Assembly (NCBI GenBank): GCA_014859345.1 | Contig: JACUUL010000019.1 | Coordinates: 1-35,809 of the forward strand | Origin: Thermoleophilia bacterium | Lineage (GTDB): Bacteria; Actinomycetota; Thermoleophilia; BMS3ABIN01 | Direction of reading: 5' to 3' | DNA length: 35,809 bases | Shown here: positions 1,341 to 35,575 of the stretch, in pieces | Position numbering within the stretch: position 1 is the stretch's first letter | Layout: the number at the start of each line of letters is the position of its first letter | Notes under the pieces: generated by a model | The model's database searches: none | What the model saw: only the letters and a program-made list of their open reading frames with translations | Told to the model about the DNA's origin: nothing | Translations under genes and position numbers: made by a program

Positions 1341-1722
1341 CTAAAGGAAGAAATTCTCGTAGAAGCGTTTCACCTGGAAGTCGTAACAGCTTTCCACATA
1401 ACCTCCTGCTTCCTGCCTGAACGATATGGGATATTCCTCGCAATAGCTCAAAATAAGCGCGTAGGCCTCATTGAGTCGTTTCATGACCGCATCAGTGCCG
1501 CCAGCGTCCGGATGCTGCTTTCTGGCCAGGTTTTTGTAGGCCGACTTTAACTCCGAACAATGCGGTCCTCTTTTCCGCCACCTTCTCGGTGATGATCTTA
1601 GCGGCCCTGACACCGTACATAACCGTGGGTGTCTTCATCATATCGATCATGATGCTCAGCGCGGTGCTGACGATGGTCTTTCTGCCGGCAATCATCCGAG
1701 TCCTGGCGATGAGATAGAACAC
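1341..1722 (-). pseudogene. J-domain (DnaJ-like) protein, apparently frameshifted
   Basis: Two overlapping minus-strand reading frames look like one gene. The 3' frame (1341-1613) contains a J-domain core: ELKSAYKNLARKQHPDAGG, with the HPD motif that stimulates Hsp70 ATPase, then MKRLNEAYALIL. It has no sensible start and no helix I in that frame. The 5' frame (1492-1722) gives a basic, partly hydrophobic N-terminus (MFYLIARTR..., ...VRAAKIITEKVAEKRTA) that stops making sense at about 1560-1575, just where the J-domain begins in the other frame. A single-base indel there would join them into a protein of roughly 125 aa. It could be a sequencing error, a real frameshift mutation, or an independent short J-domain ORF. 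It converges with the cysteine desulfurase gene. Confidence 0.6.
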
Positions 1723-1839: not shown

Positions 1840-2205
1840 ATGAGTGACGAAATCAACAGAAAGCTATACGAGATGCATGCCGAGATCTGCAAAGTGCTCA
1901 CCAATCCCAAGCGCATCGAGATTCTCAACCTGCTCCGGGATGGAGAGAGGTCAGTCAGCGAGCTGGCGGCCCTGGCGGAGTTGCCGCAGACGAATGTTTC
2001 GCGGCACCTGGCTTTCCTGCGCCAGAAAGGAATGGTCGCCTCCAGGCGCGAAGGTTCGAATATTTTCTATTCTGTGTCCAATACCAAGATCTTCAGGGCC
2101 ATGGACACCATGAAGGAAGTCCTGGTGGAAAGGCTGCGGGAGGACCAGGAATTCGTGGCCGGCCTGACCGCCGCCGGGGCAGAAGGATCCGGAAGGAAAT
2201 TGTAA
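1840..2205 (+). CDS. ArsR/SmtB-family transcriptional repressor
   Basis: A 121-aa winged-helix protein. The core runs from LTNPKRIEILNLLRDGERSVSELAALAELPQTNVSRHLAFL (helix-turn-helix with the recognition helix QTNVSRHLAFLRQ) to the wing GMVASRREGSNIFYSV. ATG 1840 was chosen because the family normally starts about 15 residues before the first helix and the upstream part of the frame overlaps the operator. There is only one Cys (about residue 17, AEICKVL). It therefore lacks the two-Cys persulfide switch of SqrR/BigR and the CxC metal site of ArsR/SmtB; the signal it reads is unclear. It heads the selenoprotein/DsrE/SQR genes, so it probably represses them in response to a sulfur or redox cue. 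Confidence 0.9.
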   Translation: MSDEINRKLYEMHAEICKVLTNPKRIEILNLLRDGERSVSELAALAELPQTNVSRHLAFLRQKGMVASRREGSNIFYSVSNTKIFRAMDTMKEVLVERLREDQEFVAGLTAAGAEGSGRKL

Positions 2206-2234: not shown

Positions 2235-2498
2235 ATGAGCGAACCGGTAATCATCTACACAAGCTCAACCTGACACGACTGTGAGAAGGCGAAAGAGTTC
2301 TTTACGCTAAATGAAGTGGAGTTTATCGAGCGCCGCCTGGAGGAGCCGGGAGTGCCGGAAGAGTGTTTTGAGAGGACCGGCCTGAAGACAAAGACTACGA
2401 TGATCGTAGGCGGCGAAGTGGTGAGCGGGTTCGCCAGAAATGCCGAACGCGTTCAGGAGCTGGTCAAGGAGCTCAAGCAAAGCACGGTCGACGGATAG
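2235..2498 (+). CDS. Glutaredoxin-like selenoprotein with an in-frame TGA (Sec) in a UxxC motif
   Basis: Reading from ATG 2235, which has AGGGAGGG just upstream, gives MSEPVIIYTSST, then TGA (2271-2273), then HDCEKAKEFF, and stays open to the TAG at 2496-2498. With TGA read as selenocysteine this is an 87-aa thioredoxin-fold protein of normal glutaredoxin length. Strand PVIIYTSS leads into U13-x-x-C16, exactly where glutaredoxins carry CxxC. Helix KAKEFF, strand EFIERR and the C-terminal MIVGGEVVSGFA follow. The usual cis-Pro before MIVGG is replaced by Thr. A bSECIS-like hairpin follows the TGA (separate entry). Conventional calling would miss it or start it falsely at GTG 2316. It sits between the ArsR and DsrE genes on the same strand, suggesting thiol, persulfide or selenide redox work with the SQR-like enzyme. 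The alternative is a Cys-to-stop mutation. Confidence 0.75.
2288..2308 (+). promoter_or_regulatory. Candidate bacterial SECIS element of the glutaredoxin-like selenoprotein
   Basis: Downstream of the TGA (2271-2273) the RNA can fold as GCG (2289-2291) with CGC (2305-2307), a bulged A (2304), AAAG (2292-2295) with CUUU (2300-2303), and the loop AGUU (2296-2299). A G-U pair, 2288 with 2308, can extend the base. The apical loop begins 22 nt after the TGA and has G as its second base. Both fit the published bSECIS rules (loop 16-37 nt after UGA, G among the first loop bases). A bulged base in the upper stem also occurs in E. coli fdhF. Folded by eye. Confidence 0.6.
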
Positions 2499-2972: not shown

Positions 2973-4124
2973 ATGCCAGGCAAGACAATCATGGTGCTCG
3001 GTGGCGGCATCGGCGGCGTGGTGGCGGCAAACAAGCTGCATCATCTGCTAAAAAACGAGCGTGTCACCCTTATTGATAGGAAGCCGGCGCACAGCTTCAC
3101 CGGTTCATATGTCTGGATCCTCAATGGCAAGCGCACCGCCTCCCAGGTTGAAAAGAGCCTTTCCGCCCTTCAGAAAAAGGGAATAGGCTTCACCCGGGGG
3201 GAGGTTACCGCCATCAATCCCAAGGCCGGCAAGGTGGATGTGGACGGCAAGGAAATGGGATATGACTACCTGGTTGTCTCCCTGGGCGCCGATCTCGACC
3301 CGGGGGCGGTTCCCGGCCTCAGCCGGGGGGGCGTCAACCTCTTTACCACCGATGGATTGACCGAGGCGCACCGGAAACTGCGCGAGTTCAGCGGAGGCCG
3401 TGTTGTCATCGCGGTCACGAGGATGCCTTACAAATGCCCCGCCGCGCCCTATGAGATGGCAATGATCATTGACAAAATGCTCCGCAAAAGCGGCGTCCGG
3501 GAGCGGTCCGAGATCGAGATAGTCACCTGGGAGCCGCAGCCGATGCCGGTGGCCGGTCCCATGATGGGCCGGGCGGTGCTCTCCATGATCGAGCCGATGG
3601 GGATAAAATTCAGGTCCGGTTCAACCATTACAGCCATAGATCCGGAGGAAAAATCGGTATTGCTGGAAAATGACGAGCCGGTGCCGTTCGACCTCCTGCT
3701 GTACGTGCCGCCGCACAAGTGCGCCCAGGTGGTCAGGGAAGCCGGCCTCACCGGCGAGGGCGGATGGGTGCCGGTGGAGCCGGGCACCCTGGCGACCAGC
3801 CATGAGAATCTCTATGTCATCGGCGACGCCGCCGCAATCAAGCTTCCCAATGCCAAGATGCTCCCCAAGGCGGGTGTTTTCGCGCATAAGCACGCCGAGA
3901 CGGTCGCTCACGAGATCGCAGCCGCCATCAAGGGCAAACCCGCGCCCAAACCCTACGGCGGCGAGGGATCCTGCTTTCTGGAGGTAGGCGACGGTACGGC
4001 CGGATACGCCAGGGGAAACTTTTATGCCGACCCGGAACCTGTAGTGAAGGCAAAAAAGCCCGGCAGGCTGCTTCATCTGGAAAAAGTCGCTTTTGAGAAA
4101 TACTGGTTCTGGAAATATCTCTGA
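2973..4124 (+). CDS. SQR-type FAD-dependent sulfide/persulfide oxidoreductase
   Basis: A 383-aa flavoprotein of the sulfide:quinone oxidoreductase family. The N-terminal FAD motif is GGGIGGVVAANKL (10-22). YDYLVVSLGA and LYVIGDAAAIKLPNAKMLPKAG are the second FAD contacts. The redox cysteines appear as C155 in RMPYKCPAAPYE and C334 in GSCFLEVGDG, the positions of the Cys pair in characterised SQRs; C250 (PPHKC) is additional. The tail FEKYWFWKYL is amphipathic, as in SQRs that sit on the membrane. The start has GGGAGGG upstream. It would oxidise sulfide and pass electrons to a quinone or other acceptor; a soluble partner cannot be excluded. It is the last gene of the ArsR-selenoprotein-DsrE-SQR set. 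Confidence 0.88.
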   Translation: MPGKTIMVLGGGIGGVVAANKLHHLLKNERVTLIDRKPAHSFTGSYVWILNGKRTASQVEKSLSALQKKGIGFTRGEVTAINPKAGKVDVDGKEMGYDYLVVSLGADLDPGAVPGLSRGGVNLFTTDGLTEAHRKLREFSGGRVVIAVTRMPYKCPAAPYEMAMIIDKMLRKSGVRERSEIEIVTWEPQPMPVAGPMMGRAVLSMIEPMGIKFRSGSTITAIDPEEKSVLLENDEPVPFDLLLYVPPHKCAQVVREAGLTGEGGWVPVEPGTLATSHENLYVIGDAAAIKLPNAKMLPKAGVFAHKHAETVAHEIAAAIKGKPAPKPYGGEGSCFLEVGDGTAGYARGNFYADPEPVVKAKKPGRLLHLEKVAFEKYWFWKYL

Positions 4125-22469: not shown

Positions 22470-23228
22470 ATGGCAAACATCGCGGTCGCCGGCAAGGGCG
22501 GCACGGGCAAGACCACGATAGCGTCTCTGGCGGTGCGCTACCTCCTGGGGCGGGGCCAGACTCCGGTTCTGGCGGTGGACGCCGACCCCAACAGCAATCT
22601 GGGCCAGACGCTGGGCATGGAGGTGGGTATCACGGTGGGCTCGATGCGCGAGGAAGGCTTCGCCGGCAGCCGCGATATACCCGGCGGCATGACCAAGGAC
22701 CAGTATGTGGAGTACAAGATGCACGAAGCCCTGGTCGAGGGGGAAGGTGTCGACTTGTTGACCATGGGACGGCCAGAGGGCCAGGGTTGCTACTGTTTTG
22801 CCAACCATCTTATCAGGCGGTTCATGGACGAACTGGCCGAGGATTACCGTCATGTGGTGATGGACAACGAGGCCGGCCTCGAGCATCTCTCCCGCCGCAC
22901 CACCCGCAGGACGGACGTGCTGCTTGTCATTTCCGACGCCGGAGTGCGGGGCCTGCAGGCGGCCCGGCGGGTTCTGGATCTGGCGGATGAGATGGAGATC
23001 GAGGTGGGGAGAAAGATGTTCGTCCTGAACCGGGCCACCGACTCCGCGGCTGCGGCTTTGGCTCCGGAGATAGAGAGGCTGAAGCTGCCTCAGGTCGCCA
23101 CCTTGCCGGAGGATCCCGGCCTCTTCGCGGCCGAGATCGAGGGCCGCTCGCTGCTTTCGCTTTCCGATGACTCTCCGGCCGTTGGCGGCGCGGCCCCGCT
23201 TTTTGATATGATTTTTGCCTCTCGTTGA
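22470..23228 (+). CDS. cooC: CooC/AcsF-type nickel-inserting P-loop ATPase
   Basis: 252 aa of the MinD/SIMIBI class. The deviant Walker A is GKGGTGKTT (8-16), the second nucleotide motif is VDADPNSNLG (37-45), and the CooC-specific metal-binding C107-x-C109 lies in GQGCYCFANHL. The switch region is VMDNEAGLEHLSRRT. CooC-type dimers bind Ni(II) through the CxC pair and load it into CODH (C-cluster) or, as AcsF, into the ACS A-cluster; which one this serves cannot be told from sequence. AAAGGA precedes the ATG. It lies 117 bp after the RACo-like gene, a gap with a small inverted repeat GATTCT-N4-AGAATC (22417-22432). Confidence 0.92.
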   Translation: MANIAVAGKGGTGKTTIASLAVRYLLGRGQTPVLAVDADPNSNLGQTLGMEVGITVGSMREEGFAGSRDIPGGMTKDQYVEYKMHEALVEGEGVDLLTMGRPEGQGCYCFANHLIRRFMDELAEDYRHVVMDNEAGLEHLSRRTTRRTDVLLVISDAGVRGLQAARRVLDLADEMEIEVGRKMFVLNRATDSAAAALAPEIERLKLPQVATLPEDPGLFAAEIEGRSLLSLSDDSPAVGGAAPLFDMIFASR

Positions 23229-23334
23229 AAAGACAGGAATCAGAATTTTTCGCTTCGCTTCCCCGGCATGAAATAGTTTTTGATTACACTGAAGAAGCGG
23301 AGGATGTGCAATTTTCCGAAGAAAGGACGTTCCA

Positions 23335-24189
23335 ATGGCGGCAACCATTATCGACGGCAAGCAGGTTTCCTCCGATATCCGCGCCGAGGTGGCCCAGGAC
23401 ACCGCCAGGTTCAAGGAGCAGCACGGCGTCACCCCGGGTCTGGCCGTGGTCCTGGTGGGCGAGGACCCTGCCTCTCAGGTCTACGTCCGCAACAAGGAGA
23501 ACGCCTGCGCGGAGGTGGGCTTCAATTCCTTTAAGTTCGCGCTTCCCGGGGAAACTGGCGAGGAGGAGCTCCTGAAGCTGGTAGACGAGCTCAATGACCG
23601 CGCGGACGTGCACGGCATCCTTGTGCAGTTGCCGCTCCCGGAGCAGATCGACTCAAACAAGGTTTTATACGGGATCAACCCGGACAAGGACGTGGACGGC
23701 TTCCACCCGGTAAACGTGGGGCGCCTGGTCATTGGCGAGACCATCTTTCCTCCATGCACGCCGGCGGGCATCATGGAGCTTCTTAAAAGAAGCGGCACTG
23801 GTTTCACGGGAGCCAATGCCGTCATCGTGGGCAGGAGCAATATCGTCGGCAAGCCGGTGGCCCTCCTGTTGCTGGCGGAGAACTGCACGGTCACCATCTG
23901 CCACTCCCGGACCAAAGACCTGCCTTCCGTGACCCGGGACGCCGATATCCTGGTGGCCGCCGTGGGCGTGCCCAAAATGATAACCGGCGACATGGTGGGA
24001 GAGGGGGCCACAGTCATCGACGTTGGTGTGAACCGCACCGACGAAGGGCTCGTGGGTGATGTCGACTTTGCCGCTGCCAGTGAGAAAGCACGCGCGATCA
24101 CCCCCGTTCCTGGAGGAGTAGGCCCCATGACAATCGCCATGCTGATGAGGAATACGCTCAGGGCCGCGGAGCTTTCCTTGCCAGTCTAG
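23335..24189 (+). CDS. folD: Bifunctional methylene-THF dehydrogenase / methenyl-THF cyclohydrolase
   Basis: 284 aa, full length. Catalytic-site motifs are [17 protein letters not shown] (Tyr and Lys of the active site), [25 protein letters not shown] and [10 protein letters not shown]. The cofactor-binding motif is [18 protein letters not shown], and the C-terminal [14 protein letters not shown] is intact. It interconverts methylene-, methenyl- and formyl-tetrahydrofolate, steps of the methyl branch of the Wood-Ljungdahl pathway. It follows cooC by 106 bp. The other methyl-branch genes (fhs, metF, acsE) are not in the window. Confidence 0.96.
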
Positions 24190-24217
24190 GGCAGGCGCGG
24201 AATCCTGTCCTGCCTAC
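24187..24217. terminator. Probable bidirectional terminator between folD and the DsrC-like gene
   Basis: The two convergent genes are separated by a stem GCAGG/CCTGC extended by TAG/CTA around a 12-base loop. No clear T-tract is seen on either side, so the efficiency is uncertain. Confidence 0.4.
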
Positions 24218-24558
24218 GCTGTTTCCCTGGGCGGAGCCAGATAGGCCAGCACTTCTTCCACAGGCTTGGGCAGCCCTGCGATCCTCCAGGCGGCTACAGG
24301 GTCGATGAACTCCTCCCTGACGCAGTCCCCCGGCTGGTGGACGTTCCTGCAAACTGAAGACAGGATCGGGAAAGAGCGGTAGTTTTCGTAGTAGTCCCGC
24401 ATGAACCGGATGACATCCATCATCTGCGGCGTCAATTCCTCAATGCCCTCCTTCTCGGCCAGGGCCCTGGCCACGTTCTCGTTCCAGTCCTTATAGTTAA
24501 CAAGAAAACCATCCTCGTCCAGCTCGATCTGCTCTCCCTGATATTCTATTACCGGCAT
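24214..24558 (-). CDS. DsrC/TusE-like protein lacking both C-terminal redox cysteines
   Basis: 114 aa. The fold is clear: IEYQGEQIELDEDGFLVNYKDW at the start, LTPQMMDVIRFMRDYY in the middle and WRIAGLPKP at the end. In DsrC the C-terminal arm carries CysB before, and CysA after, the conserved AGLPKP. Here those positions are Trp91 and the EEVLAYL segment, so the trisulfide chemistry of DsrC and the single-Cys transfer of TusE are impossible at the usual sites. Two other cysteines (C70, C79: SSVCRNVHQPGDCV) lie in the inner helices. Cys-less DsrC relatives have been proposed to be regulatory sulfur-related proteins. AAGGAG precedes its ATG; it is co-directional with the small gene upstream. 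Confidence 0.85.
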   Translation of the reverse strand: MPVIEYQGEQIELDEDGFLVNYKDWNENVARALAEKEGIEELTPQMMDVIRFMRDYYENYRSFPILSSVCRNVHQPGDCVREEFIDPVAAWRIAGLPKPVEEVLAYLAPPRETA

Positions 24559-24625
24559 CGGTTACTCCTTATTAAAGAGAATTTATCGATGGAACATCAT
24601 AGCTTGCGCCGACTCGGCCTGTCGC

Positions 24626-24943
24626 TCAGACCGGATTCCTCTCCGCGCTGGAATCGGTGTCCATGGACCCATGACGGCCGGGAAGAATGCCGACCTCCCT
24701 TTCCAGATCCATGATGTACTGGTCGATCAGCGCTCCCAGGTAAAGGCACTGGCGTCCTTCCATGCAGTCATCGGCATCTTTTTTATCCAAAAACGCGTAA
24801 CGGCTATGGCCTCCCTTCTCTAAACAAACCACCCACGCATTCCTCATCTCGTCGAAATTGAGGCTGAGGTTCAGCTGGTTCTTCTGGATTTCGGGATAGA
24901 GCTGAAGAAGCTTATTCTCAAGAGAGACCTGCGTGTAGCCCAT
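24626..24943 (-). CDS. Conserved-looking small protein upstream of the DsrC-like gene, function unknown
   Basis: 105 aa from the ATG whose upstream sequence is AAGGAGGAGAAC, a near-perfect ribosome binding site; the longer frame upstream is not needed. It is soluble and mixed alpha/beta, with NLSLNFDEMRNAWVVCLEKGGHSRYAFLDKKDADDC and MEGRQCLYLGALIDQYI. Three cysteines (C40, C60, C66) include C60-x5-C66, which could bind metal or form a disulfide. The last 15 residues look disordered. It forms a two-gene minus-strand unit with the DsrC-like protein, so a sulfur-relay or regulatory partnership is likely. I do not recognise the family. Confidence 0.75.
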   Translation of the reverse strand: MGYTQVSLENKLLQLYPEIQKNQLNLSLNFDEMRNAWVVCLEKGGHSRYAFLDKKDADDCMEGRQCLYLGALIDQYIMDLEREVGILPGRHGSMDTDSSAERNPV

Positions 24944-25417
24944 GTTCTCCTCCTTGTTCCGGCGGCCTTCCCCATGATTGATAATGAAAATATCGTACAC
25001 GGCCGCTTTGCCTTATTTATGCCCCGTATTTCGCGAGATTAAGCAATGCCACGGATAAGCTGGTTGCCTGAATAACAAATGAGGCCGGGCAGATAAGCCA
25101 GAAAAGTATGCTTTTTGCCGCCTAAGACATTCAGGGTTTTCCACCAGATTCGCGGTTTTTGAAGTCGCTGTGGAACCATCAGGGATTGATCCGGAATGGC
25201 TTGTAATTTCTGTTTCAAAGTTTTTCCTCCGCTGATGGTTCGTCAGGGGTTTCCCCCAGAATTCCAGCTATTTTATGATACGACCGGTCAAGATACATTT
25301 GACGGCCCGATACCCGCCCGGGTATTATTGTCCTGTATGGCAAAGGGGTATTCAGATGGCTGTCGATCATCGCCTGTTCGCCATATCATCGAATGCGGGA
25401 TCCAAAGGAGAGTATGT
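24944..25417. promoter_or_regulatory. Divergent intergenic region with a promoter-overlapping palindrome for the surface-protein gene
   Basis: No gene. On the plus strand TTGACG (25299-25304), an 18-bp spacer and TATTAT (25323-25328) form a good promoter. A perfect palindrome ATACCCG-CC-CGGGTAT (25310-25325) occupies the spacer and the start of the -10, so a repressor there would block it. Further upstream GAACCATCAG (25173-25182) recurs inverted as CTGATGGTTC (25232-25241), a possible long hairpin or looping site. Transcription would begin near 25335, leaving an 80-base leader. Confidence 0.55.
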
Positions 25418-25813
25418 ATGAAATTCAGGTCTGTTTGCGTGCTTGCACTGTCTGTGATTATCGCTGCCGGGATGCCGGCTCTTGCCTCGGGAGCGCCGGC
25501 GGGTTCGGCGGCCTTGTCTGTCTATGACAATAGCTCAGAGCTGGAAAACTCCGCCAACGAGCAGTATGGTTCGGAGGCGCCTTCAAACGGGCAGCCCCCG
25601 GCTCCAAATCCGGCTGGACCCGATACGGACTTCGCGCCTGCGGCTGTGGTATCGCAATACGCGGGAACCGGTTCGAGCGCGGCCGGCTCCCAGTACATGG
25701 GCTCATCAGGGATGCCAAACACGGGCATAGCGGCGATTGCGCTTCCGGCGGCTGGCCTGATGACCGCCGGCCTGGGCGCCTGGCTCCTGAGGAAGAACCG
25801 GATCCAGGCGTAA
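25418..25813 (+). CDS. Small secreted protein with an LPXTG-like (MPNTG) cell-wall sorting signal
   Basis: 131 aa. A signal peptide (MKFRSVCVLALSVIIAAGMPALASGAPA) leads into a short, Ser/Pro/Gly/Asn-rich, low-complexity mature part with repeated short motifs such as SQYAGTG and SQYMGSS. Then GMPNTG, a hydrophobic stretch (IAAIALPAAGLMTAGLGAWLL) and the basic tail RKNR follow: the three parts of a sortase substrate, with Met instead of Leu. AAAGGAG sets ATG 25418. Such proteins are covalently anchored to peptidoglycan in monoderm bacteria. No sortase gene is in the window. The function is unknown; the mature part has no cysteine or recognisable domain. Confidence 0.8.
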   Translation: MKFRSVCVLALSVIIAAGMPALASGAPAGSAALSVYDNSSELENSANEQYGSEAPSNGQPPAPNPAGPDTDFAPAAVVSQYAGTGSSAAGSQYMGSSGMPNTGIAAIALPAAGLMTAGLGAWLLRKNRIQA

Positions 25814-25842
25814 CGGGCGGTAAGATGAATTCAGCAGGAACC

Positions 25843-25870
25843 GGCGCGGGCCTCTGGCCCGCGCCGTCAT
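25843..25870 (+). terminator. Intrinsic terminator of the surface-protein gene
   Basis: A perfect ten-base-pair stem GGCGCGGGCC/GGCCCGCGCC with a TCT loop, followed by the weak tract TCATTT. It lies 30 bp after the stop codon. Confidence 0.65.
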
Positions 25871-25955
25871 TTCAGCGGTAATCCCGTGATAAGCGATCCT
25901 GTTAACAAACCGGCGCTTAAGCAATTAATAGGATATGAATAATCGCCATTACTTA

Positions 25956-25985
25956 TTGACGGGCACCTTGTCGTGGTGCTATCAT
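25956..25985 (+). promoter_or_regulatory. Promoter of the acs operon leader, with a dyad in its spacer
   Basis: TTGACG (25956-25961), 18-bp spacer, TATCAT (25980-25985). The spacer contains the inverted repeat GCACC-N7-GGTGC (25963-25979), i.e. a dyad lying between the -35 and -10 boxes on the same face where MerR-type or other activators bind. The layout is the same as at the surface-protein promoter (TTGACG, 18 bp, TATTAT). Transcription would begin near 25992. Confidence 0.65.
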
Positions 25986-25991
25986 CTGCCA

Positions 25992-26142
25992 TTACCGTAC
26001 GCTTGTGAAATAAAGAACATATTTACTGGCGGACATTAAAACGGTAAACGCAGGAGCTTGACCGGGATGCCTTCCCTGGCCGGCCTGGTCTATTCTCAAA
26101 GGTTCCGAGGTGTTGCGATAAGCCTCGAGCCTTTGGTTTTTT
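25992..26142 (+). ncRNA. Structured leader or small RNA upstream of acsD, ending in an intrinsic terminator
   Basis: The predicted transcript begins exactly with TTACCGT (25992-25998), which pairs with ACGGTAA (26041-26047) to close a domain containing an inner hairpin AAATA/TATTT. A second stem-loop starts with GACC (26060-26063) pairing with GGTC (26087-26090). The end is a strong terminator: CAAAGG (26097-26102)/CCTTTG (26130-26135) and CGAGG/CCTCG, followed by TTTTTT (26137-26142). About 150 nt in all. The layout (closed aptamer-like domain, then terminator, then operon) suggests a riboswitch or attenuator for the acs operon, or a separate small RNA. It matches none of the common riboswitch consensuses I can recall. 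Confidence 0.5.
26097..26142 (+). terminator. Intrinsic terminator in the acs leader
   Basis: An 11-bp interrupted stem with a 12-base loop and six T residues, about 207 bp before acsD. TTTGG (26132-26136), part of its 3' arm, can instead pair with CCAAA (26150-26154), a weak candidate antiterminator. Beyond it, 26143-26349 holds small hairpins (GGCGA-AAG-TCGCC; ATCCCG-GCTC-CGGGAT) but no obvious second promoter. Confidence 0.7.
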
Positions 26143-26349
26143 AAGATTGCCAAAACTTGGGCTGGGCGGACCCGACTCCGGTTTTAATCGACGGCGAAAG
26201 TCGCCTTCCCTCGAATCGAAAATCAGCAGGGAAACAAAAATCCCGGCTCCGGGATCCCGTAAAACCCGCGGATATATGAGTAATTAATCAGGCACGATCC
26301 CGGCAGTACGGAACCGAGGGATGATTTATAAAGGAAGGAGAGGATTGAC

Positions 26350-27309
26350 TTGGCATTTGAACCGCCAGTGGAACATGTAAAAGGCAAGATCCGCGAAGTA
26401 AGTCTCGAAGGCGGGGTCAGGATCGGCGGCGAATCGACCTTCCCGTTTCATCTGTGGGAAGGCGAGATGCCGAACGCGCCGATCATCGCCATGGAGGTAT
26501 ATGACGAGTCTCAGCCGGAGTGGCCTGATGCCGTCCGCCAGGTTTATGAGGACGTGATGGACGATCCGGTGGCCTGGGCGCTCAAGTGCCAGGACGAATT
26601 TGGCGCCGACGCCGTCTGCATCCAGTTAAAAAGCACCGATCCAAACGGAGCCGACGCCTCCCCTGAGTCGGCCGCCGAGACCGTGAATAAAGTAGTCGGA
26701 GCGGTGAAGATTCCTGTGCTCGTCTACGGCAGCGGCAGCCCTGACAAGGACGCTGACGTGCTGAAGAAAGTGGCCGAGGCGCTGCCTGACAAGAGCATCC
26801 CCCTGGGTCCGGTCGACGACTCCAATTACCGTCTCATAGGCGCCGCCGCCATGGGCTACAAGAAGCCCGTCGTGGCCTTCACTTCCATGGATGTGAACCT
26901 GGCCAAACAGCTGAATGTCCTGCTCTCGCAGCTGGGTGTGCCCGAGGAGAAAATCATTATGGATCCCACCACCGGAGCACTGGGATACGGTCTTGAGTAT
27001 TGCTATTCTATTATGGAGAGAGACCGGCTGGCTGCGCTTGTCCAGAACGATGGAATGATGCAGATGCCAGTCATAAACAACCTGGCTCCGGAGACCTGGA
27101 AGGCGAAGGAGTCCAGGGTAAGTGAGGATGAAGAACCTACCTACGGCAACGTTGGAACCAGGGGCATCCTCTGGGAGGCCATTACCGCGACCACTCTGCT
27201 GCTGGCCGGCAGCGATATCCTGGTTATGCGCCACCCCGAGGCCGTGAAGCTGGTTCGGGCCGCCATGGAGGGTCTAAAGGCTCAATCCAAGGAGAAAGTT
27301 GCATCATGA
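26350..27309 (+). CDS. acsD: Corrinoid iron-sulfur protein small subunit (CODH/ACS delta)
   Basis: 319 aa. A TIM-barrel protein with the characteristic start (HVKGKIREVSLEGGVRIGGESTFPFHLWEGEMPNAPIIAMEVYD) and DPVAWALKCQDEFGADAVCIQLKSTDPNG, PVLVYGSGSPDKDADVLKKVAEAL and IIMDPTTGALGYGLEYCYSIMERDRLAAL. It pairs with AcsC to carry the methyl group from methyl-THF:CoFeSP methyltransferase to acetyl-CoA synthase. The TTG start follows AAGGAAGGAGAGG. Its stop overlaps the ATG of acsA, so the two are translationally coupled. Confidence 0.95.
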   Translation: MAFEPPVEHVKGKIREVSLEGGVRIGGESTFPFHLWEGEMPNAPIIAMEVYDESQPEWPDAVRQVYEDVMDDPVAWALKCQDEFGADAVCIQLKSTDPNGADASPESAAETVNKVVGAVKIPVLVYGSGSPDKDADVLKKVAEALPDKSIPLGPVDDSNYRLIGAAAMGYKKPVVAFTSMDVNLAKQLNVLLSQLGVPEEKIIMDPTTGALGYGLEYCYSIMERDRLAALVQNDGMMQMPVINNLAPETWKAKESRVSEDEEPTYGNVGTRGILWEAITATTLLLAGSDILVMRHPEAVKLVRAAMEGLKAQSKEKVAS

Positions 27310-29264
27310 GTGACGAAAAAACAAAGACCAAGAAGAAGGAAGAACCCCGGCCGAAAAGCATAGATCCGGCGGCTCTCGAGGTGCTGGAACGCGCCGATGC
27401 GGCCGGCATCAGCACCGTCTTCAGCCGTGTGGACGAAATGAAGCAGTGTCCCATCGGCGCCGCCGGCTCGTGCTGCGCCTACTGCGCCATGGGCCCCTGC
27501 CGCCTGGTGGGCAAAGGGGCCGAGGAAAAGACCGGCATCTGCGGCGCCACCCACGGCACCATCGGCGCCCGTACCTGGCTCAGAGCCTGCGCGACGGGAA
27601 CTGCGGCCCACGCCGACCACGGCCGTGACATAGTCAATACCCTTAAGGCCGTTTCCGAGGGAAAAGCCAACAGTTATACCATCCGAGATCCTGAGAAGCT
27701 GATGAGGGTCGCAGGCAATATGAATATTGATACGGAAGGCAAGGATATCCTGCAGATCGCCGGTGAGGTGGCGGATCTGGCCATGGATAACTTCACTGGC
27801 CGCGCGGGCGGGATGACTTACATGTCCCGGGCGCCGAAGAAGCGGCAGGAACTATGGGAGAAACTGAACCTGGTTCCCCGCGGCATAGACCGGGAGATCG
27901 TGGAGAGCATGCACCGCACCCACGTGGGGGTCGATCAGGACGCCGATCACCTGCTCGATCAGGCGCTCAGAGTATCGCTCGCAGACGGATGGGGCGGAGC
28001 CATGCTGGCGACCGACCTCTCGGACGTCCTGTTCGGCACTCCCAAACCTCTTACCGCCGAAGCCAATCTTGGCGTCCTCAAGCGGGATGAGGTCAACATC
28101 ATCGTGCACGGACACGAGCCGACCCTTTCGGACATGATCGTGACCGCGTCGCGCGATCCGGAGATCGTCGAGTACGCCAAAAGCAAGGGCGCCAAGGGCG
28201 TGAACCTGGCAGGCATCTGCTGTACGGCCAACGAGATCCTGATGCGCCACGGCATCTCCCCGGCAGGGAACTTCCTGCACCAGGAGCTCGCCGTCATCAC
28301 CGGCGCCGTGGAGGCCATGGTCGTCGATGTGCAGTGCGTCCTGCAGGCCCTGCAGCCGCTTTCCGAGAAGTTCCACACCAAGCTGATCACTACATCGCCG
28401 AAAGCGAAGATTCCCGGCGCGGAGCACGTCCAGTTCGATGAGGAGCATGCCCTGGACATCGCCAGGGACATAGTCCGCATGGCGATCGACAATTATGAGA
28501 ACCGCGGGGAGATCCAGATTCCCGAGCACAAGGGCAACATGGTCGCCGGGTTCTCCCATGAATATATCGAATACATGCTGGGCGGCCGCTACCGCGCTTC
28601 CTTCCGCCCGCTCAACGACAACATCATAAACGGACGGATCAAGGGAGCGGTGGCCATCGTCGGCTGCAACAATCCGCGGGTCACCCAGGATGAGGGAATA
28701 ATCAAGCTGGTCACGGAGCTGATCAAGCGGGACATCCTGGTAGTGGTCACCGGCTGCGCCGCCCACGCCAGCGGCAAGCACGGCATCCTGCAGCCGGAGA
28801 TGCTGGAAGAGGCCGGTCCGGGCCTGCGTGAAGTAGGCGAAGCCGTCGGTATTCCGCCGGTGCTGCACCTGGGAAGCTGCGTGGACAACTCGCGCATCCT
28901 GACCATCCTGAGCCACGTCGTGGAAGAGGGCGGCCTGGGAGATGATATTTCCGACCTGCCCGCGGCTGCCATCTGCCCCGAATACTACTGTGACAAGGCT
29001 CTGGCCATCGGCACCTACGCGGTGGGGTCCGGAGCCTACGTGGTGTTCGGCGTCCGCTCGCCGATCGAGGACTCTGAAGAGATGAAGCAGCTTACCACCG
29101 AAGGCTGGGAAAAGAAGGTCGGCGGGCAGCTGGTCTTCGAGCCCGACTACGAGAAGATCCTGGAAATGGTGATGAACCGTATTGAGCAGAAGCGCGACGC
29201 CCTTGGCATCAACGTGGAGAAGGAACGCGTCCTACTCGATATGGCCGCCCGGCGTGAACTGTAG
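27306..29264 (+). CDS. acsA: Carbon monoxide dehydrogenase catalytic subunit (CooS/AcsA)
   Basis: 652 aa, full length. The D- and B-cluster cysteines are C48, C56, C57, C60, C65 and C79 (QCPIGAAGSCCAYCAMGPCR, GICGATHG). C-cluster ligands are all visible: His in IVHGHEPTLSD, and Cys in GICCTANE, VDVQCVLQAL, VTGCAAHASG, LGSCVDNSR and AICPEYYCD. A Lys-rich N-terminal extension (about 20 residues) precedes the core. It reduces CO2 to CO at the Ni-Fe-S C-cluster and feeds CO through the internal tunnel to AcsB. It needs nickel insertion, presumably by the CooC in this window. Confidence 0.97.
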   Translation: MSDEKTKTKKKEEPRPKSIDPAALEVLERADAAGISTVFSRVDEMKQCPIGAAGSCCAYCAMGPCRLVGKGAEEKTGICGATHGTIGARTWLRACATGTAAHADHGRDIVNTLKAVSEGKANSYTIRDPEKLMRVAGNMNIDTEGKDILQIAGEVADLAMDNFTGRAGGMTYMSRAPKKRQELWEKLNLVPRGIDREIVESMHRTHVGVDQDADHLLDQALRVSLADGWGGAMLATDLSDVLFGTPKPLTAEANLGVLKRDEVNIIVHGHEPTLSDMIVTASRDPEIVEYAKSKGAKGVNLAGICCTANEILMRHGISPAGNFLHQELAVITGAVEAMVVDVQCVLQALQPLSEKFHTKLITTSPKAKIPGAEHVQFDEEHALDIARDIVRMAIDNYENRGEIQIPEHKGNMVAGFSHEYIEYMLGGRYRASFRPLNDNIINGRIKGAVAIVGCNNPRVTQDEGIIKLVTELIKRDILVVVTGCAAHASGKHGILQPEMLEEAGPGLREVGEAVGIPPVLHLGSCVDNSRILTILSHVVEEGGLGDDISDLPAAAICPEYYCDKALAIGTYAVGSGAYVVFGVRSPIEDSEEMKQLTTEGWEKKVGGQLVFEPDYEKILEMVMNRIEQKRDALGINVEKERVLLDMAARREL

Positions 29265-29276
29265 GAGGATATATAA

Positions 29277-31481
29277 ATGAGCAAAATCATAGCTACATCG
29301 GTCATCGCCGGAGCGCATCAGTGGGTCAACGAGGCCGAAGAGGCGTTAGAGCAGGCGATAGACCAGTTTGGCCCCGAACAGGTCATCGAGCTGCCGAATA
29401 CAGGCTATTATCTGCCGGTCATATACGGATTGACAGGAATCAAGGTCGAGAAAGTCAAGGACATGGAACAGGTGCTGGCCCATGCCCGCGAGCTGCTGCC
29501 GGATGAGCCGGCTGTAAGTCTGTGGACACCCTATCTGGGTACCGCGCTGGATGCCGGCATCGCCACCCTGTTCGCGGAGGAGATCATCGAGTCGCTCAGG
29601 TACATCCTGCAGCCGGGCTTCTACACGGCCACGGATTCCCCGACCGAGGATAATCTCTGGCTGGGCGCGGCTGATGACGTCATCATGCGCGAGCGTGGCG
29701 TGGAGTTCGTGGACGGCACCGCGCCCGGTTTCGCCGCCATCACCGGAGCGGCCCCGGACGTCGAGACCGCTGTAAAGATCGCCCAGGAGCTTAAAGAGAA
29801 GATGCTGTATGTCTTCATCGCCGGCAAGAACCAAAACACCGGCGTCAGTTTTGCCGACCAGCTGGTCGAGGGCGGCGTGGACCTGGGCTGGAACACCCGC
29901 CTGGTGCCGTTCAGCCCGTTTGTCTCCGGGCATATCTTCTCGCTTGGTTTTGCCACCCGGGCGGCACTGGCCTTCGGGGGCGTCCAGGCCGGCGATTTCC
30001 GCAATGTCCTCAAATACAACAAGGACCGCGTTTTCGCCTTCGTGCTGGCGCTGGACGAGGTATCGGACAAGAAATATGCGACCGCGGCGGGAGCGATATC
30101 TTACGGTTTTCCTACCATCGCGGACACGCCGATTCCGGAGATCCTGCCCACCGGCGTCTGCACTTACGAGCACGTGGTCAGCAGTGTGCCACATGATGAG
30201 ATGGTGGCCAGGGCCATCGAAGTGCGCGGCCTGAAGGTCGTCGTCACCGAAGTGCCGGTGCCGGTCGCCTACAGCCCCGCCTTTGAAGGCGAGCGCATCC
30301 GGAAAGGCGAGTACTGGGTGGAGCTGGGCGGTCCGAAATCGCTCGGGTGCGAGTTCACCGAGATCGCTGATGATGTCGAGGACGGCAAGGTGACGGTGGT
30401 TGGCCCCGAGATCGGCGAGGAGGAGCAGGGCGCGACGGTTCCCGTAGCCATCCATGTGGAAGTCTCCGGCCGCAAGATGCAAAAGGACTTCGAGCCGATC
30501 CTGGAGCGGCAGGGCCATTCATTCTTCAACGAGGCCGAAGGAATCCTGCACATGGGCCAGCGCGACACCGTGTGGATGCGAATCAGCAACAAGGCCAAGG
30601 ATGCAGGCTTTACTTTCGAGCATCTGGGCAAGATCATTCACGCCCGCTATCACGCGGACTTCGGCTCGGTTGTGGACAAAGTGCAGACGACTATTTATAC
30701 AGATCTGGATGAAGTGGAGAAGATCGTTGAACGGGCCAGGGTCGCCTACCATGAGCGCGATGAGCGCCTGGGCAGCCTCACCGACGAGAGCGTGGATATG
30801 TTCTATTCCTGCATTCTCTGCCAGAGCTTCGCGCCCACGCATGTGTGCGTGATCACGCCGGAGCGTCCGGGCCTGTGCGGCTCGTATAACTGGCTGGACG
30901 GCAAGGCCGCCTATGAGATGAACCCCACCGGCGGCAATCAGCCGGTTGCCAAGGGGGAGACTCTCGATGAGGCGCGGGGCCAGTGGAGCGGCGTCAATGA
31001 ATATGTCCTGGAACACTCGCAGGGCCAGGTGGAGGCATTCAACACATATTCCATGATGGAGAACCCGATGACCTCCTGCGGCTGTTTCGAGGTGATCAGC
31101 TGCGTGCTGCCCATGTGCAACGGGATCATGACCGTGAACCGCGAGTTCAAGGGAGACACGCCTTCCGGCATGAAGTTCTCGACGCTGGCGGGTTCGGTCG
31201 GCGGCGGCGTGCAGAGTCCCGGTTTTCTGGGCCATTCCAAATTCTATATGGGCTCGCCCAAATTCATCTCAGCCGACGGCGGCATCAAGCGCCTGGTCTG
31301 GATGCCCAAAGAGCTCAAGGAAGAAATGCACGACATGCTGAAGAAGGCAGGCGAGCGGGAAGGCATACCCGATCTGGTGGACAAGATCGCCACCGAGGAG
31401 GACGGTACCGAGGAAGAAGAGGTGTACGAGTACCTGGCCAAGGTCGGGCACCCGGCGCTTGAGATGGACCCGTTATTCTGA
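29277..31481 (+). CDS. acsB: Acetyl-CoA synthase subunit (bacterial type, with N-terminal CODH-binding domain)
   Basis: 734 aa, the length of the bacterial enzyme. The N-terminal domain (about 1-310) that docks on CODH and carries the CO tunnel is present, unlike in the archaeal form. A-cluster ligands lie in FYSCILCQSFAPTHVCVITPERPGLC (the [4Fe-4S] cysteines), and the distal-nickel Cys-Gly-Cys in TSCGCFEVISC (around 31075). It joins CO, the methyl group from CoFeSP and CoA into acetyl-CoA. AGGAGG precedes the ATG, 12 bp after acsA. Confidence 0.97.
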   Translation: MSKIIATSVIAGAHQWVNEAEEALEQAIDQFGPEQVIELPNTGYYLPVIYGLTGIKVEKVKDMEQVLAHARELLPDEPAVSLWTPYLGTALDAGIATLFAEEIIESLRYILQPGFYTATDSPTEDNLWLGAADDVIMRERGVEFVDGTAPGFAAITGAAPDVETAVKIAQELKEKMLYVFIAGKNQNTGVSFADQLVEGGVDLGWNTRLVPFSPFVSGHIFSLGFATRAALAFGGVQAGDFRNVLKYNKDRVFAFVLALDEVSDKKYATAAGAISYGFPTIADTPIPEILPTGVCTYEHVVSSVPHDEMVARAIEVRGLKVVVTEVPVPVAYSPAFEGERIRKGEYWVELGGPKSLGCEFTEIADDVEDGKVTVVGPEIGEEEQGATVPVAIHVEVSGRKMQKDFEPILERQGHSFFNEAEGILHMGQRDTVWMRISNKAKDAGFTFEHLGKIIHARYHADFGSVVDKVQTTIYTDLDEVEKIVERARVAYHERDERLGSLTDESVDMFYSCILCQSFAPTHVCVITPERPGLCGSYNWLDGKAAYEMNPTGGNQPVAKGETLDEARGQWSGVNEYVLEHSQGQVEAFNTYSMMENPMTSCGCFEVISCVLPMCNGIMTVNREFKGDTPSGMKFSTLAGSVGGGVQSPGFLGHSKFYMGSPKFISADGGIKRLVWMPKELKEEMHDMLKKAGEREGIPDLVDKIATEEDGTEEEEVYEYLAKVGHPALEMDPLF

Positions 31482-31612
31482 TTTGCTATAAGCGGCACGG
31501 GGATTCCCTTGGCGAACGGTTCGCGATGGGAACCAGTGCGGCAAAACAGCAACTTTTTGTAGCGCTGCGCATGTTCGCTTAGGGAATATCCCGGGCCGTT
31601 AAATCGGATTAA

Positions 31613-31748
31613 GGGGACACAATACTTAATTCCGTAGGGCAGATGTATTTCCGTCAGGCGGTTGAACTGACCGTAGTTTAATCCGGGGACACAATACTTA
31701 ATCCGTCAGGCGGCTGGTTTGATCGCGCTGGATTAAGTATTGTGTCCC
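31613..31748. repeat. REP/BIME-like element between acsB and acsC
   Basis: GGGGACACAATACTTAAT occurs at 31613-31630 and 31685-31702, and its inverse ATTAAGTATTGTGTCCC at 31732-31748. The second and third copies form a stem of about 17 bp with a 29-base loop; CCGTCAGGCGG also repeats within the unit. This is the layout of a REP-type palindromic element, of the kind mobilised by Y1 (REP-associated) transposases; no transposase is present here. The rest of the 385-bp gap (31482-31866) shows no gene. Confidence 0.75.
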
Positions 31749-31866
31749 TGAAATTTGTCAAGCTACGAATTAGCCCATGGAAATCGGGTGCGCCCTGATT
31801 TTCGCAAGAGGTCCCTGGTTTATTCCAGGACGCGATATCTAAAATCCAATATCCGGGAGGTTGAGC

Positions 31867-33213
31867 GTGGCTCTTAGCGGTCTGCAAATCTTTAAGCTGC
31901 TGGCCAAAACCAATTGCAAGGAATGCGGTTTTCCCACCTGCATGGCCTTCGCCATGCAGCTGGCGGCCGGCAAGGCGGAGCTGGACCAGTGTCCCTATGT
32001 TTCCGACGAGGCAAAAGCGGCCCTGGGCGAGGCGTCCGCCCCGCCGGTGCGCAAGGTCACCGTGGGCGCCGGCGACATGGCGGTGACCGTGGGCGAGGAG
32101 ACCGTCCTCTACCGGCACGAGAAACGTTTTGAGCATATGCCGGGCCTGGGAATCCTGATCACGGATGAGATGGATGAAAGCCAGGTCGGTTCCCTGCTGG
32201 CGCAGCTAAAGCAGACCGTGTTCAATTATGTTGGAGTAACTTTGAGGCCCAGAGTGGCCGCCATCAAGGCCGCCGACGGCGCCAGGCTGACGGCGCTGGC
32301 GGCCAGGGCGGACGCGGAAGCCGGCGCGGCCATCATCCTCATGAGCGACGACGCCGATGCCCTGAAGTCGGCCGCGGAACCCATCAAGGACAAGAAGCCG
32401 CTGCTTTACGCGGCAACTGAGTCGAACTTCGATGCGGTTTCGGCAGTGGCCAAGGAACTTGACGTCCCCTTCGCGATCAAGGCGGATTCCCTGGACAGGC
32501 TGGCCGAACTGGGTCAGAAGGCGCTGGACGGCGATTTCAAGGAGGTCGTTCTGGACCCATTGCCGGCCTCGCTGGGCGACGTGCTGCTTGACAACACCAT
32601 TATTCGCCGGGCCGCCATCAAGAAGACGTTCCGGGCACTGGGATTTCCTACTATCGGTTTCCCGTGTGACATGACCGGCGACAGGATGCTCGAGGCTGTC
32701 TACGCTTCGGTGTTTATAGCCAAGTATTCCGGTTTCGTGATTCTTTCCGACCTGGACCCGGCCAGGGTGATGCCGCTCCTGTATCTGAGCCAGAACATCT
32801 ATACCGACCCGCAGCGGCCCATGCAGATGGAGCAGGGCATTTATCCGGTCGGCGAGCCGGGTCCGGAATCCCCGGTGCTGGTCACTACCAACTTCTCTTT
32901 GACCTATTTCACGGTTTCCTCGGAAGTGGAGGCCAGCAAGGTGCCCACTTGGCTATGCATAATGGACGTGGAGGGCCAGTCGGTGCTTACTGCCTGGGCG
33001 GCCGGCAAATTCGTTGCCGACGCCATCGCTCCGTTTTTGAAAAAGAGCGGCATAGAGGAGAAGGCGCCCCACAAGAAGGTGATTATTCCCGGATACGTGG
33101 CCCAGATCTCGGGCGAGCTGGAGGAGGAACTGGGCGATGGCTGGGACGTGCAGGTGGGTGTGCGCGAAGCCGCGGACATCCCCAAGTTCCTGCGCCAGTG
33201 GAACCCGGGTTAA
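31867..33213 (+). CDS. acsC: Corrinoid iron-sulfur protein large subunit (CODH/ACS gamma)
   Basis: 448 aa from GTG 31867, six bases after GGGAGG; TTG 31861 would be too close to it. The N-terminal [4Fe-4S] motif is TNCKECGFPTCMAFAMQLAAGKAELDQC, which in this family reduces the corrinoid. The TIM-barrel and C-terminal cobamide-binding domains follow (DMTGDRMLEAVYASVFIAKYSGFVILSD, NIYTDPQRPMQMEQGIYPVGEP, VIIPGYVAQISGELEEELGDGW). It carries the methyl group on cobalt for delivery to AcsB. It is separated from acsB by a REP element rather than by the few bases usual in acs operons. Confidence 0.95.
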   Translation: MALSGLQIFKLLAKTNCKECGFPTCMAFAMQLAAGKAELDQCPYVSDEAKAALGEASAPPVRKVTVGAGDMAVTVGEETVLYRHEKRFEHMPGLGILITDEMDESQVGSLLAQLKQTVFNYVGVTLRPRVAAIKAADGARLTALAARADAEAGAAIILMSDDADALKSAAEPIKDKKPLLYAATESNFDAVSAVAKELDVPFAIKADSLDRLAELGQKALDGDFKEVVLDPLPASLGDVLLDNTIIRRAAIKKTFRALGFPTIGFPCDMTGDRMLEAVYASVFIAKYSGFVILSDLDPARVMPLLYLSQNIYTDPQRPMQMEQGIYPVGEPGPESPVLVTTNFSLTYFTVSSEVEASKVPTWLCIMDVEGQSVLTAWAAGKFVADAIAPFLKKSGIEEKAPHKKVIIPGYVAQISGELEEELGDGWDVQVGVREAADIPKFLRQWNPG

Positions 33214-33417
33214 GGACCGCTTTCCGTTCCAGTTTGCCGCTGTTTCGGGCGGGCGCAGGTTTCGGGCGGACTGTCATCCCTATGCGGAGCTTCTCTGGGA
33301 TCCGGGACATAGCGCTCACTGTAATCCCGGGGCGACGCGAATGTTGATCGTCCCCGGTAACTGGTGAAACGTCATCCGGGCGCAAAGAAGGTGAAAGCCC
33401 CGGGCAACGGATGAACC

Positions 33418-33500
33418 TGTCATCCTGAGCGGAGCGAAGGATCTGTTTTGATCTTAATGGAAGCAGATTTCGGCAGTCGCTCCGCCCCATCAGAATGACA
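33418..33500. repeat. Small MITE/REP-like element with near-perfect terminal inverted repeats
   Basis: TGTCATCCTG (33418-33427) and CAGAATGACA (33491-33500) are inverted copies with one mismatch, bounding 83 bp that includes GAGCGGAGCGAAGGATC, a motif common in dispersed bacterial repeats. A further relative (GTCATCCC ... GCGGAGC) lies near 33275. The element is within the 358-bp gap 33214-33571, which also holds a hairpin (CCGGG...GACG with CGTCCCCGG, about 33330-33359) and no gene. Confidence 0.55.
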
Positions 33501-33571
33501 ATGAACTGAGTAGGGAAATAAAATGCCGGTAGCCCGGCATACTTTCCGTGAAGGCAGCCTGAGGAAATCCC

Positions 33572-35575
33572 ATGAGCAATGACCAGACTGCAATAGCCAG
33601 AAATTTCTTCCGCGAGGGAGCAGGCCGGCCGCACCTCAGAGCGCCGTGCGAAGTGGCGTGCCCCATCCACCAGGAGGCGCAACTCTACATCCAGCTGGTG
33701 GCGGCGGGCAAACCGGTCGAGGCCCTCGATGTCATCCGGCGCGCCAACCCGATCCCCCAGGTGATCGGCCGCATCTGCGCCCGGCCCTGCGAGAGCGCCT
33801 GCCGCCGCGGCTCCGTAGACGAGCCCATTGCCATCTGCAACATCAAGCGGGTGGCCAGCGACGGCGCCAAAGCGGCCGGGATGGGCTTCGAGCCGCCGGC
33901 AACAGAATTTGCCACCGGGAAAAAAGTCGCCATCATAGGCTCGGGACCGTCGGGACTGGCGGCGGCGCATGATCTGGCGTCGATGGGAGTAAAGCCGGTC
34001 ATATATGAGAGGCAGGACAAGCCTGGAGGGTTCCTGCGCAGCGGTATCCTGAACTACCGCCTGCCCAAGGACATCCTTGACGAAGACATTGATTACATCG
34101 TCCGCATGGGAGTCGAGATCAAAACCGGCGTCTCCGTGGGCGATGACGTCACTTTCGATGAGATGGCCGCGGAATATGACGCTGTGCTGATTGCCGTGGG
34201 CATGTCCGAGAGCCGCGGCCTGCCGATTCCGGGCGCCGAGACGACCGGCGTGCTGCTGGCGGTGCCGTTTCTGGCGGATGTAAATGCCGGCAGGGAGATA
34301 CCGGACCTGGGCAGGGAGGTCATTGTAATAGGCGGCGGCAACGTGGCCATTGACGTGGCCCGCTCAGCCAGGCGCATCTCCGGCGGCAAGGTGACCATGG
34401 TCTGCCTCGAGGCGGGCCATGAGATGCCGGCCCATGACTGGGAGATCGAGGACGCCCGCGCCGAGGGGATTGGGATCATCTGCAGCCAGGGGCCCGAACG
34501 GGTTCTGGGCGAGGACAGGGTCGAGGGCCTTCAGGTCAAGAAATGCGAGGCTGTTTTCGATGAACAGGGCCGCTTCGCCCCACGTTTCTGTGAGACCGAG
34601 CTGACCACTATCCCGGGCGACACGGTCATTATCTGCATCGGGCAGATGTCGAATCTTTCCTTCCTGCCGGAGGCGGGGCCCGCAGTGGATGAGCGTGGCA
34701 TCCTGATTTTCGACCGGGAGAAGAGCACCACCACCCGCCACGGCGTCTTCGCCAGCGGCGAAGTGGTCACCGGACCGGGCGCCGCCGTGGATGCGCTGGC
34801 CAGCGGCAGGCGCGCCGCTGTCGCCATCGGCAGGTTCCTGGGCGTTGATATCGATTATCTGCCTGAACCGGTGGCTGTGGACCCGTTGCCCGGAGATGTG
34901 GCCGAAAAGATCAAGAAATCGCCACGGCGGCGGATGCCGGCTGTGGAGCCGGAAACCCGGCTCAAGGATTTCCGGGAAGTTGAACTGGGCCTGGGAGAGG
35001 TCGACTCCCGCTGCGAAGCTTCCCGCTGCCTGCTTTGCGCCGCCGGCGCCAGGTTCTCACAGCTCAAGTGCATCGCCTGCCTGACCTGCGTGCGGGTCTG
35101 TCCATACAACGCTCCCTGGGCCGATAAAGACGGGCTGGGCGCCATCGACCCGCTCAGGTGTCAGGCCTGCGGCATCTGCTTCACCCAGTGTCCATCCAAG
35201 GCGATTGACCTGACTTTGCTGTCCGAGACAGACATCGAGGGCCGGATCGACGCCGGCCTCTCCGGCGGCGCCACCATGATCGAATTCGGCTGCTGGTATC
35301 CGCAGACGCGGGTAGAGCCGGACGCCCCGGCGGTGATGTTGCCCTGCACCGGACGTCTGAGCGTGCGCCTGCTGCTGCACGCCTTCGAAGCGGGTGCGGA
35401 CAAGATCGTAGTAGCTGTCTGCAGTGAGGACGATGACGGCCACTTCGTTCACGGCCACCGGCAGACGCGGGCCGCGGTAACTGAGGCCCGGGCGGCCCTG
35501 GAAGAAATGGGGATGGACCCGGAAGCCATCGAGATCAGGCTGGTGCCGGAGAAGAAATGCATGTTGAAAGCATGA
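33572..35575 (+). CDS. GltD-like FAD/NAD(P) oxidoreductase fused to a 2x[4Fe-4S] ferredoxin and an MvhD-like domain
   Basis: 667 aa. An N-terminal GltD-type [4Fe-4S] region has C26, C30, C69, C73, C77 and C89 (CEVAC, CARPCESAC). FAD binding is at AIIGSGPSGLAAAHDL (about 120-135), NAD(P) binding at VIVIGGGNVAIDVARSA (about 250-266). Two ferredoxin clusters follow: CIACLTCVRVCPY and CQACGICFTQCPSKAID. The C-terminal 110 residues (MIEFGCWYPQ, VMLPCTGRLSVRLLLHAFEAGADKIVVAVC, AALEEMGM) resemble MvhD, which links hydrogenase to heterodisulfide reductase. It is probably an electron-transfer hub between NAD(P)H and ferredoxin or an Hdr-like partner, acting with the acs enzymes. GAGGAA precedes the ATG. 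Confidence 0.88.
   Translation: MSNDQTAIARNFFREGAGRPHLRAPCEVACPIHQEAQLYIQLVAAGKPVEALDVIRRANPIPQVIGRICARPCESACRRGSVDEPIAICNIKRVASDGAKAAGMGFEPPATEFATGKKVAIIGSGPSGLAAAHDLASMGVKPVIYERQDKPGGFLRSGILNYRLPKDILDEDIDYIVRMGVEIKTGVSVGDDVTFDEMAAEYDAVLIAVGMSESRGLPIPGAETTGVLLAVPFLADVNAGREIPDLGREVIVIGGGNVAIDVARSARRISGGKVTMVCLEAGHEMPAHDWEIEDARAEGIGIICSQGPERVLGEDRVEGLQVKKCEAVFDEQGRFAPRFCETELTTIPGDTVIICIGQMSNLSFLPEAGPAVDERGILIFDREKSTTTRHGVFASGEVVTGPGAAVDALASGRRAAVAIGRFLGVDIDYLPEPVAVDPLPGDVAEKIKKSPRRRMPAVEPETRLKDFREVELGLGEVDSRCEASRCLLCAAGARFSQLKCIACLTCVRVCPYNAPWADKDGLGAIDPLRCQACGICFTQCPSKAIDLTLLSETDIEGRIDAGLSGGATMIEFGCWYPQTRVEPDAPAVMLPCTGRLSVRLLLHAFEAGADKIVVAVCSEDDDGHFVHGHRQTRAAVTEARAALEEMGMDPEAIEIRLVPEKKCMLKA

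Follow-up and report, generated by a model that had tools for sequence, protein, structure and literature searches.

The frame at positions 2235–2498 on the forward strand of the window, by which we mean the whole 35,809-nucleotide stretch of DNA analyzed, carries a TGA in the midst of what otherwise reads as a glutaredoxin, and the question it raises is whether this codon is read as selenocysteine (Sec) and, if so, whether the resulting selenol serves sulfide metabolism, as the original prediction had proposed. The frame opens with ATG at 2235, has its single in-frame TGA at 2271–2273, exactly where the first Cys of the CxxC motif is expected, and closes with the TAG stop at 2496–2498; coordinates and residues proved to be as first described. 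With the TGA taken as Sec (residue 13, motif TSST-U-HDC), the product is an 87-residue protein of sequence MSEPVIIYTSST-U-HDCEKAKEFF...MIVGGEVVSGFA. A probable Shine–Dalgarno element, the purine-rich AGGGAGGG at 2224–2231, lies directly upstream, with the ATG 3 nt further downstream, as had been claimed. The claim that the fold continues intact past the TGA also stands, the read-through frame matching the Pfam Glutaredoxin model with 29.1 bits (cut-off 22.9, E 1.2e-6). We put the probability that this frame encodes a selenocysteine-containing glutaredoxin at roughly 0.96 from sequence comparison, on the grounds that homologues carry either a conserved TGA or Cys, that the frame evolves under constraint (dN/dS 0.066) and that the Sec machinery is complete, which together take the reading beyond chance. 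Selenoprotein identity and the redox mechanism given below, taken together, are highly probable.

The machinery required for such a reading is present in the host genome, a draft of 2.08 Mb in 122 contigs that is listed as 100% complete. A tRNA-Sec with anticodon UCA (72 bits), selA (500 bits) and selB (366 bits, cut-off 242) are grouped on contig 38, and the host selD contains an in-frame TGA of its own (motif GAG-U-ACK) followed by its own hairpin. The proposed search for selA, selB, selC and selD thus returned all four genes, by which complement the host decodes UGA as Sec.

Among homologues, genome G017, of the same family, encodes a 70%-identical glutaredoxin with TGA at the same codon. 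A second clade, found in another family by a class-wide search of 399 genomes, has TGA in the same column in G082, G057, G091, G100 and G086 and Cys in G022 and G032 (SSPTCLDC). The codon is therefore TGA in six further genomes and Cys in two close homologues, and the check for homologues with random stops at this position found TGA or Cys only. Between the window and G017, 36 of the 61 differences after the TGA fall at codon position 3 and dN/dS over the frame is 0.066, which together exclude a dead gene. An inactivating mutation, or a miscalled TGC or TGT, would need a change of one base, and the assembly is a draft in 122 contigs; such an origin of the TGA is nevertheless extremely improbable given that independent assemblies of six related genomes hold TGA in the same column, that selection acts on the frame straight through the TGA and that the genome encodes Sec machinery. 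On the strength of the conserved TGA and the dN/dS value, both the sequencing-error and the pseudogene readings were rejected. SelA was found in all genomes of the homologue sets but one, which is 64% complete, and some genomes of lower completeness gave no tRNA-Sec hit. Extending the search to the phylum yielded two more UxxC glutaredoxins with TGA (UPYC, L117 and L127), each followed directly by a frame that, judged by eye, resembles thioredoxin reductase. A scan of genome contigs with short peptide patterns returned only two distant Cys homologues, in Syntrophaceae/Smithella metagenome-assembled genomes. Within the family of the host, L045 (G013) is another TGA-containing glutaredoxin (STPG-U-PHC), in which the hairpin of the other TGA genes was not found.

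That hairpin occupies positions 2288–2308 of the forward strand in the window, with the loop AGUU at 2296–2299 and a bulged A at 2304, and is of the bacterial SECIS type. The published bSECIS model asks for a loop of 3–9 nt with a G in its first two positions, an upper stem of 4–16 bp, a UGA-to-loop distance of 16–37 nt and a minimum free energy of −7.5 kcal/mol or lower (PMC13188914). With its four-base loop, G at loop position 2, a 4-bp upper stem, a lower stem across the bulged A and a spacing of 22 nt, the window hairpin conforms to the model in shape and placement. Its energy reaches the limit of −7.5 only with the flank counted, at −8.1 kcal/mol for the 45 nt that follow the TGA as against −6.8 kcal/mol for the isolated hairpin. 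Hairpins of bSECIS shape follow about 19% of the TGA triplets in the whole window, for which reason the structure is not significant by itself. The original SECIS claim therefore holds as to bulged A and spacing and is weak as stand-alone evidence. Comparison across homologues adds to it: the bSECIS shape recurs at a spacing of 21–23 nt in the minimum-free-energy fold of eight of the nine TGA genes, the window counted (seven of eight homologues), and in the ninth, that of G082, local folding brings out the same hairpin. No bSECIS-type hairpin is present in the two close Cys homologues, whose encoded peptide is nearly identical. Set against synonymous recodings of its own frame, the window hairpin gives p 0.013, and eight TGA genes compared with 46 Cys glutaredoxins give p 0.0014 (Mann–Whitney), values that serve as guides, the sequences being related and hence not independent. 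The homologue evidence consists of energies, model criteria and Cys controls rather than column-wise covariation, the stem register being shifted by one base between the clades.

UxxC glutaredoxins are an already verified selenoprotein family (PMC13188914; PMC1794560), with Clostridium oremlandii glutaredoxin-1 as an experimentally verified member and further ones in Geobacter sulfurreducens and Moorella (PMC1794560), and the window protein is a new member of this kind (PF00462, UxxC). Its best NCBIfam match, over residues 5–69, is GlrX_YruB (TIGR02196), membership of which was rejected at 36.2 bits against a cut-off of 88.55. The Uxx-star family (NF041212 and relatives) likewise consists of glutaredoxin-like selenoproteins and occurs in the same genomes, but there the Sec is the third-last residue (U-x-x-stop) and Cys is retained in the CxxC motif, whereas the window protein has Sec in the redox motif itself; with 26 bits against a cut-off of 66, and no C-terminal Sec, this assignment was rejected as well. 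One Uxx-star type gene lies in the host genome itself (G000), on the minus strand of contig 105 (20561–20770, L049), and ends in ...VTVGFGGSUGI-stop. At least eight relatives within the family share this C-terminal Sec motif, and some 3 kb from the host gene lies a GCS2-type gene. The label "overlooked" is apt for the gene in the sense that no NCBIfam model reaches its cut-off, the kind of protein being already known, and standard gene callers, which end at UGA, would miss or truncate it.

What sets this member apart is the Thr that stands in for cis-Pro and the sulfide-gene setting. In an AlphaFold2 model built from a three-row alignment (mean pLDDT 76.7), strands and helices follow one another as in a glutaredoxin. 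Among solved relatives, Clostridium oremlandii glutaredoxin-1 (cGrx1) ranks first by sequence and at or near the top by fold, aligning nearly end to end (7c10, E 4.4e-9). cGrx1 is itself a native selenoprotein, whose catalytic Sec, replaced by Cys13 in the solved Cys form, is accompanied by Cys16, and the window protein shares its fold and its UxxC at residues 13 and 16; it differs in having His-Asp in place of Pro-X between U and C, in Thr54, and in its ArsR, DsrE and SQR gene neighbors. The predicted substitution of cis-Pro was verified: residue 54 is Thr, as is its counterpart in G017, while the second clade and cGrx1 have Pro, so that the canonical redoxin feature of a cis-Pro before strand β3 is absent from the window protein. 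PMC2757866, citing Su et al. 2007, gives the proposal that cis-Pro keeps metals from binding at the active site. A protein lacking it, as in the window and G017, might accordingly bind an iron–sulfur cluster or soft metal ions through its Sec/Cys pair and act as a carrier or sensor alongside ArsR; we regard this as distinctly unlikely, with Pro retained in the second clade and the adjoining ArsR protein having one Cys only.

This ArsR/SmtB-family regulator (1840–2205, forward strand; Pfam HTH_5 6.3e-16; NF033788 85 bits, cut-off 55) is likely the first gene of the cluster. Its single Cys is Cys17, its counterpart next to the G017 glutaredoxin is 78% identical, and among the specific sensor models none scored above cut-off, leaving the general ArsR/SmtB model as its match. 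Between it and a NifS-like gene lies a small DnaJ-like frame (1341–1613, minus strand; below the Pfam cut-off), and small frames of this sort are also found near the ArsR genes of SQR clusters in L106 and L108. Downstream of the glutaredoxin, both on the forward strand, follow a DsrE/DsrF-like protein (2546–2896; Pfam DsrE 4.3e-16; CGICLEAC) and a type III SQR-like flavoprotein (2973–4124; Pfam Pyr_redox_2 and FCSD_central), the latter scoring 226 bits against NF049943, below the cut-off of 525, and being 73–74% identical to its equivalents in G017, G015 and G005. Sulfur-handling selenoproteins are known among homologues of the neighbors in the window and in the second clade, namely DsrE-like proteins with UxxC, a type III SQR selenoprotein subtype (NF049943) and rhodanese form 1 with UxxS (PMC13188914). 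Unlike those, the window DsrE and SQR proteins contain no internal TGA and use Cys, for which reason we rejected them as selenoproteins; the glutaredoxin alone has a TGA. Reading the SQR frame through its terminal TGA adds 34 codons in which no resemblance was noticed. Farther along the window are two TauE/SafE permeases, a DsrC/TusE-family protein (24214–24558, minus strand; above the NCBIfam cut-off) and, near the latter, a CODH/ACS (Wood–Ljungdahl) cluster at 22470–35575 comprising a MinD/CooC-like ATPase, FolD, CdhD, CODH, ACS, a corrinoid protein and an NAD(P)-binding/FlpD fusion. Permeases, DsrC-like protein and CODH/ACS genes point to an anaerobe with sulfur metabolism.

The order ArsR–glutaredoxin–SQR is the same in G017, with DsrE placed between glutaredoxin and SQR in the window only. 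The second clade has sulfur-transfer neighbors of its own. At all seven of its loci examined (L087, L088, L089, L090, L091, L092 and L093) a rhodanese-domain gene lies upstream of the glutaredoxin, and this gene keeps an in-frame TGA in 7/7 genomes within VYCND-Y/F-T-U-EAS/G (for example VVYCNDYT-U-EAS); a strong hairpin, ATCGCAGCTGATAAGCTGCGA, comes after it. The rhodanese TGA persists where the adjoining glutaredoxin has Cys. The protein is probably a Sec-rhodanese (UxxS, form 1).

How the window glutaredoxin would work can be outlined as follows. The hairpin at 2288–2308 would direct SelB and tRNA-Sec to insert Sec at UGA 2271–2273, giving a thioredoxin-fold protein with a U-H-D-C redox center, in which the selenol of Sec13 would attack and the thiol of Cys16 would carry out the resolving step. 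Presumably co-expressed with the ArsR, DsrE-like and SQR-like proteins, it would most probably resolve disulfides or persulfides on proteins of the cluster or on other sulfur carriers in sulfide handling, and would be recharged by a low-molecular-weight thiol or by an enzyme of the thioredoxin-reductase type. We favor resolution of per- or disulfides in view of the sulfur-transfer neighborhood that both glutaredoxin clades have in common. As to the thiol partner, mycothiol is unsupported, the MshC match falling below cut-off; a glutamate–cysteine-ligase-type gene was found, and a glutathione-like thiol is a possible partner.

The proposal of a selenium-based thiol or persulfide reductant for sulfide metabolism thus finds its support in the gene neighborhood (ArsR–glutaredoxin–SQR in two genomes, rhodanese in the second clade). 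A tight link to SQR is weakened by four relatives with a 67–74% identical SQR and no glutaredoxin in that cluster, and the glutaredoxin is therefore not an obligate part of the SQR system. Reading the neighborhood as function, we hold the sulfide/persulfide role tentatively, at slightly under even odds. The same four relatives would be expected if the protein were a general redox helper, for instance one that reduces peroxiredoxin or methionine sulfoxide reductase, and its place next to sulfide genes were incidental. cGrx1, the nearest solved relative, has been proposed to reduce MsrA, and the two UPYC glutaredoxins of the phylum precede thioredoxin-reductase-like frames, both of which suit a helper of this kind. 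The preserved cluster order with ArsR and SQR in G017 argues the other way, as does the fact that the neighbor in the second clade, rhodanese, is another sulfur-transfer protein, and we consider the general helper a credible possibility that falls somewhat short of an even chance. Taking the sulfide/persulfide role a step further, one may speculate that a Sec-glutaredoxin lineage has specialized for sulfane sulfur, the loss of cis-Pro opening the active site for the reduction of per- or polysulfide bound to SQR or DsrE, or for metal or cluster binding via Sec, and the parallel clade forming with its Sec-rhodanese a two-selenoprotein sulfur relay; this extended scheme we think doubtful.

For the organism, the glutaredoxin would mean that a bacterium with Wood–Ljungdahl genes possesses a selenol redoxin near its SQR and DsrE genes. 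For the family, the two clades would tie the use of Sec to sulfane-sulfur chemistry, and the occurrence of both Sec and Cys homologues in the second clade, together with the change from cis-Pro to Thr, makes the advantage of Sec directly testable.
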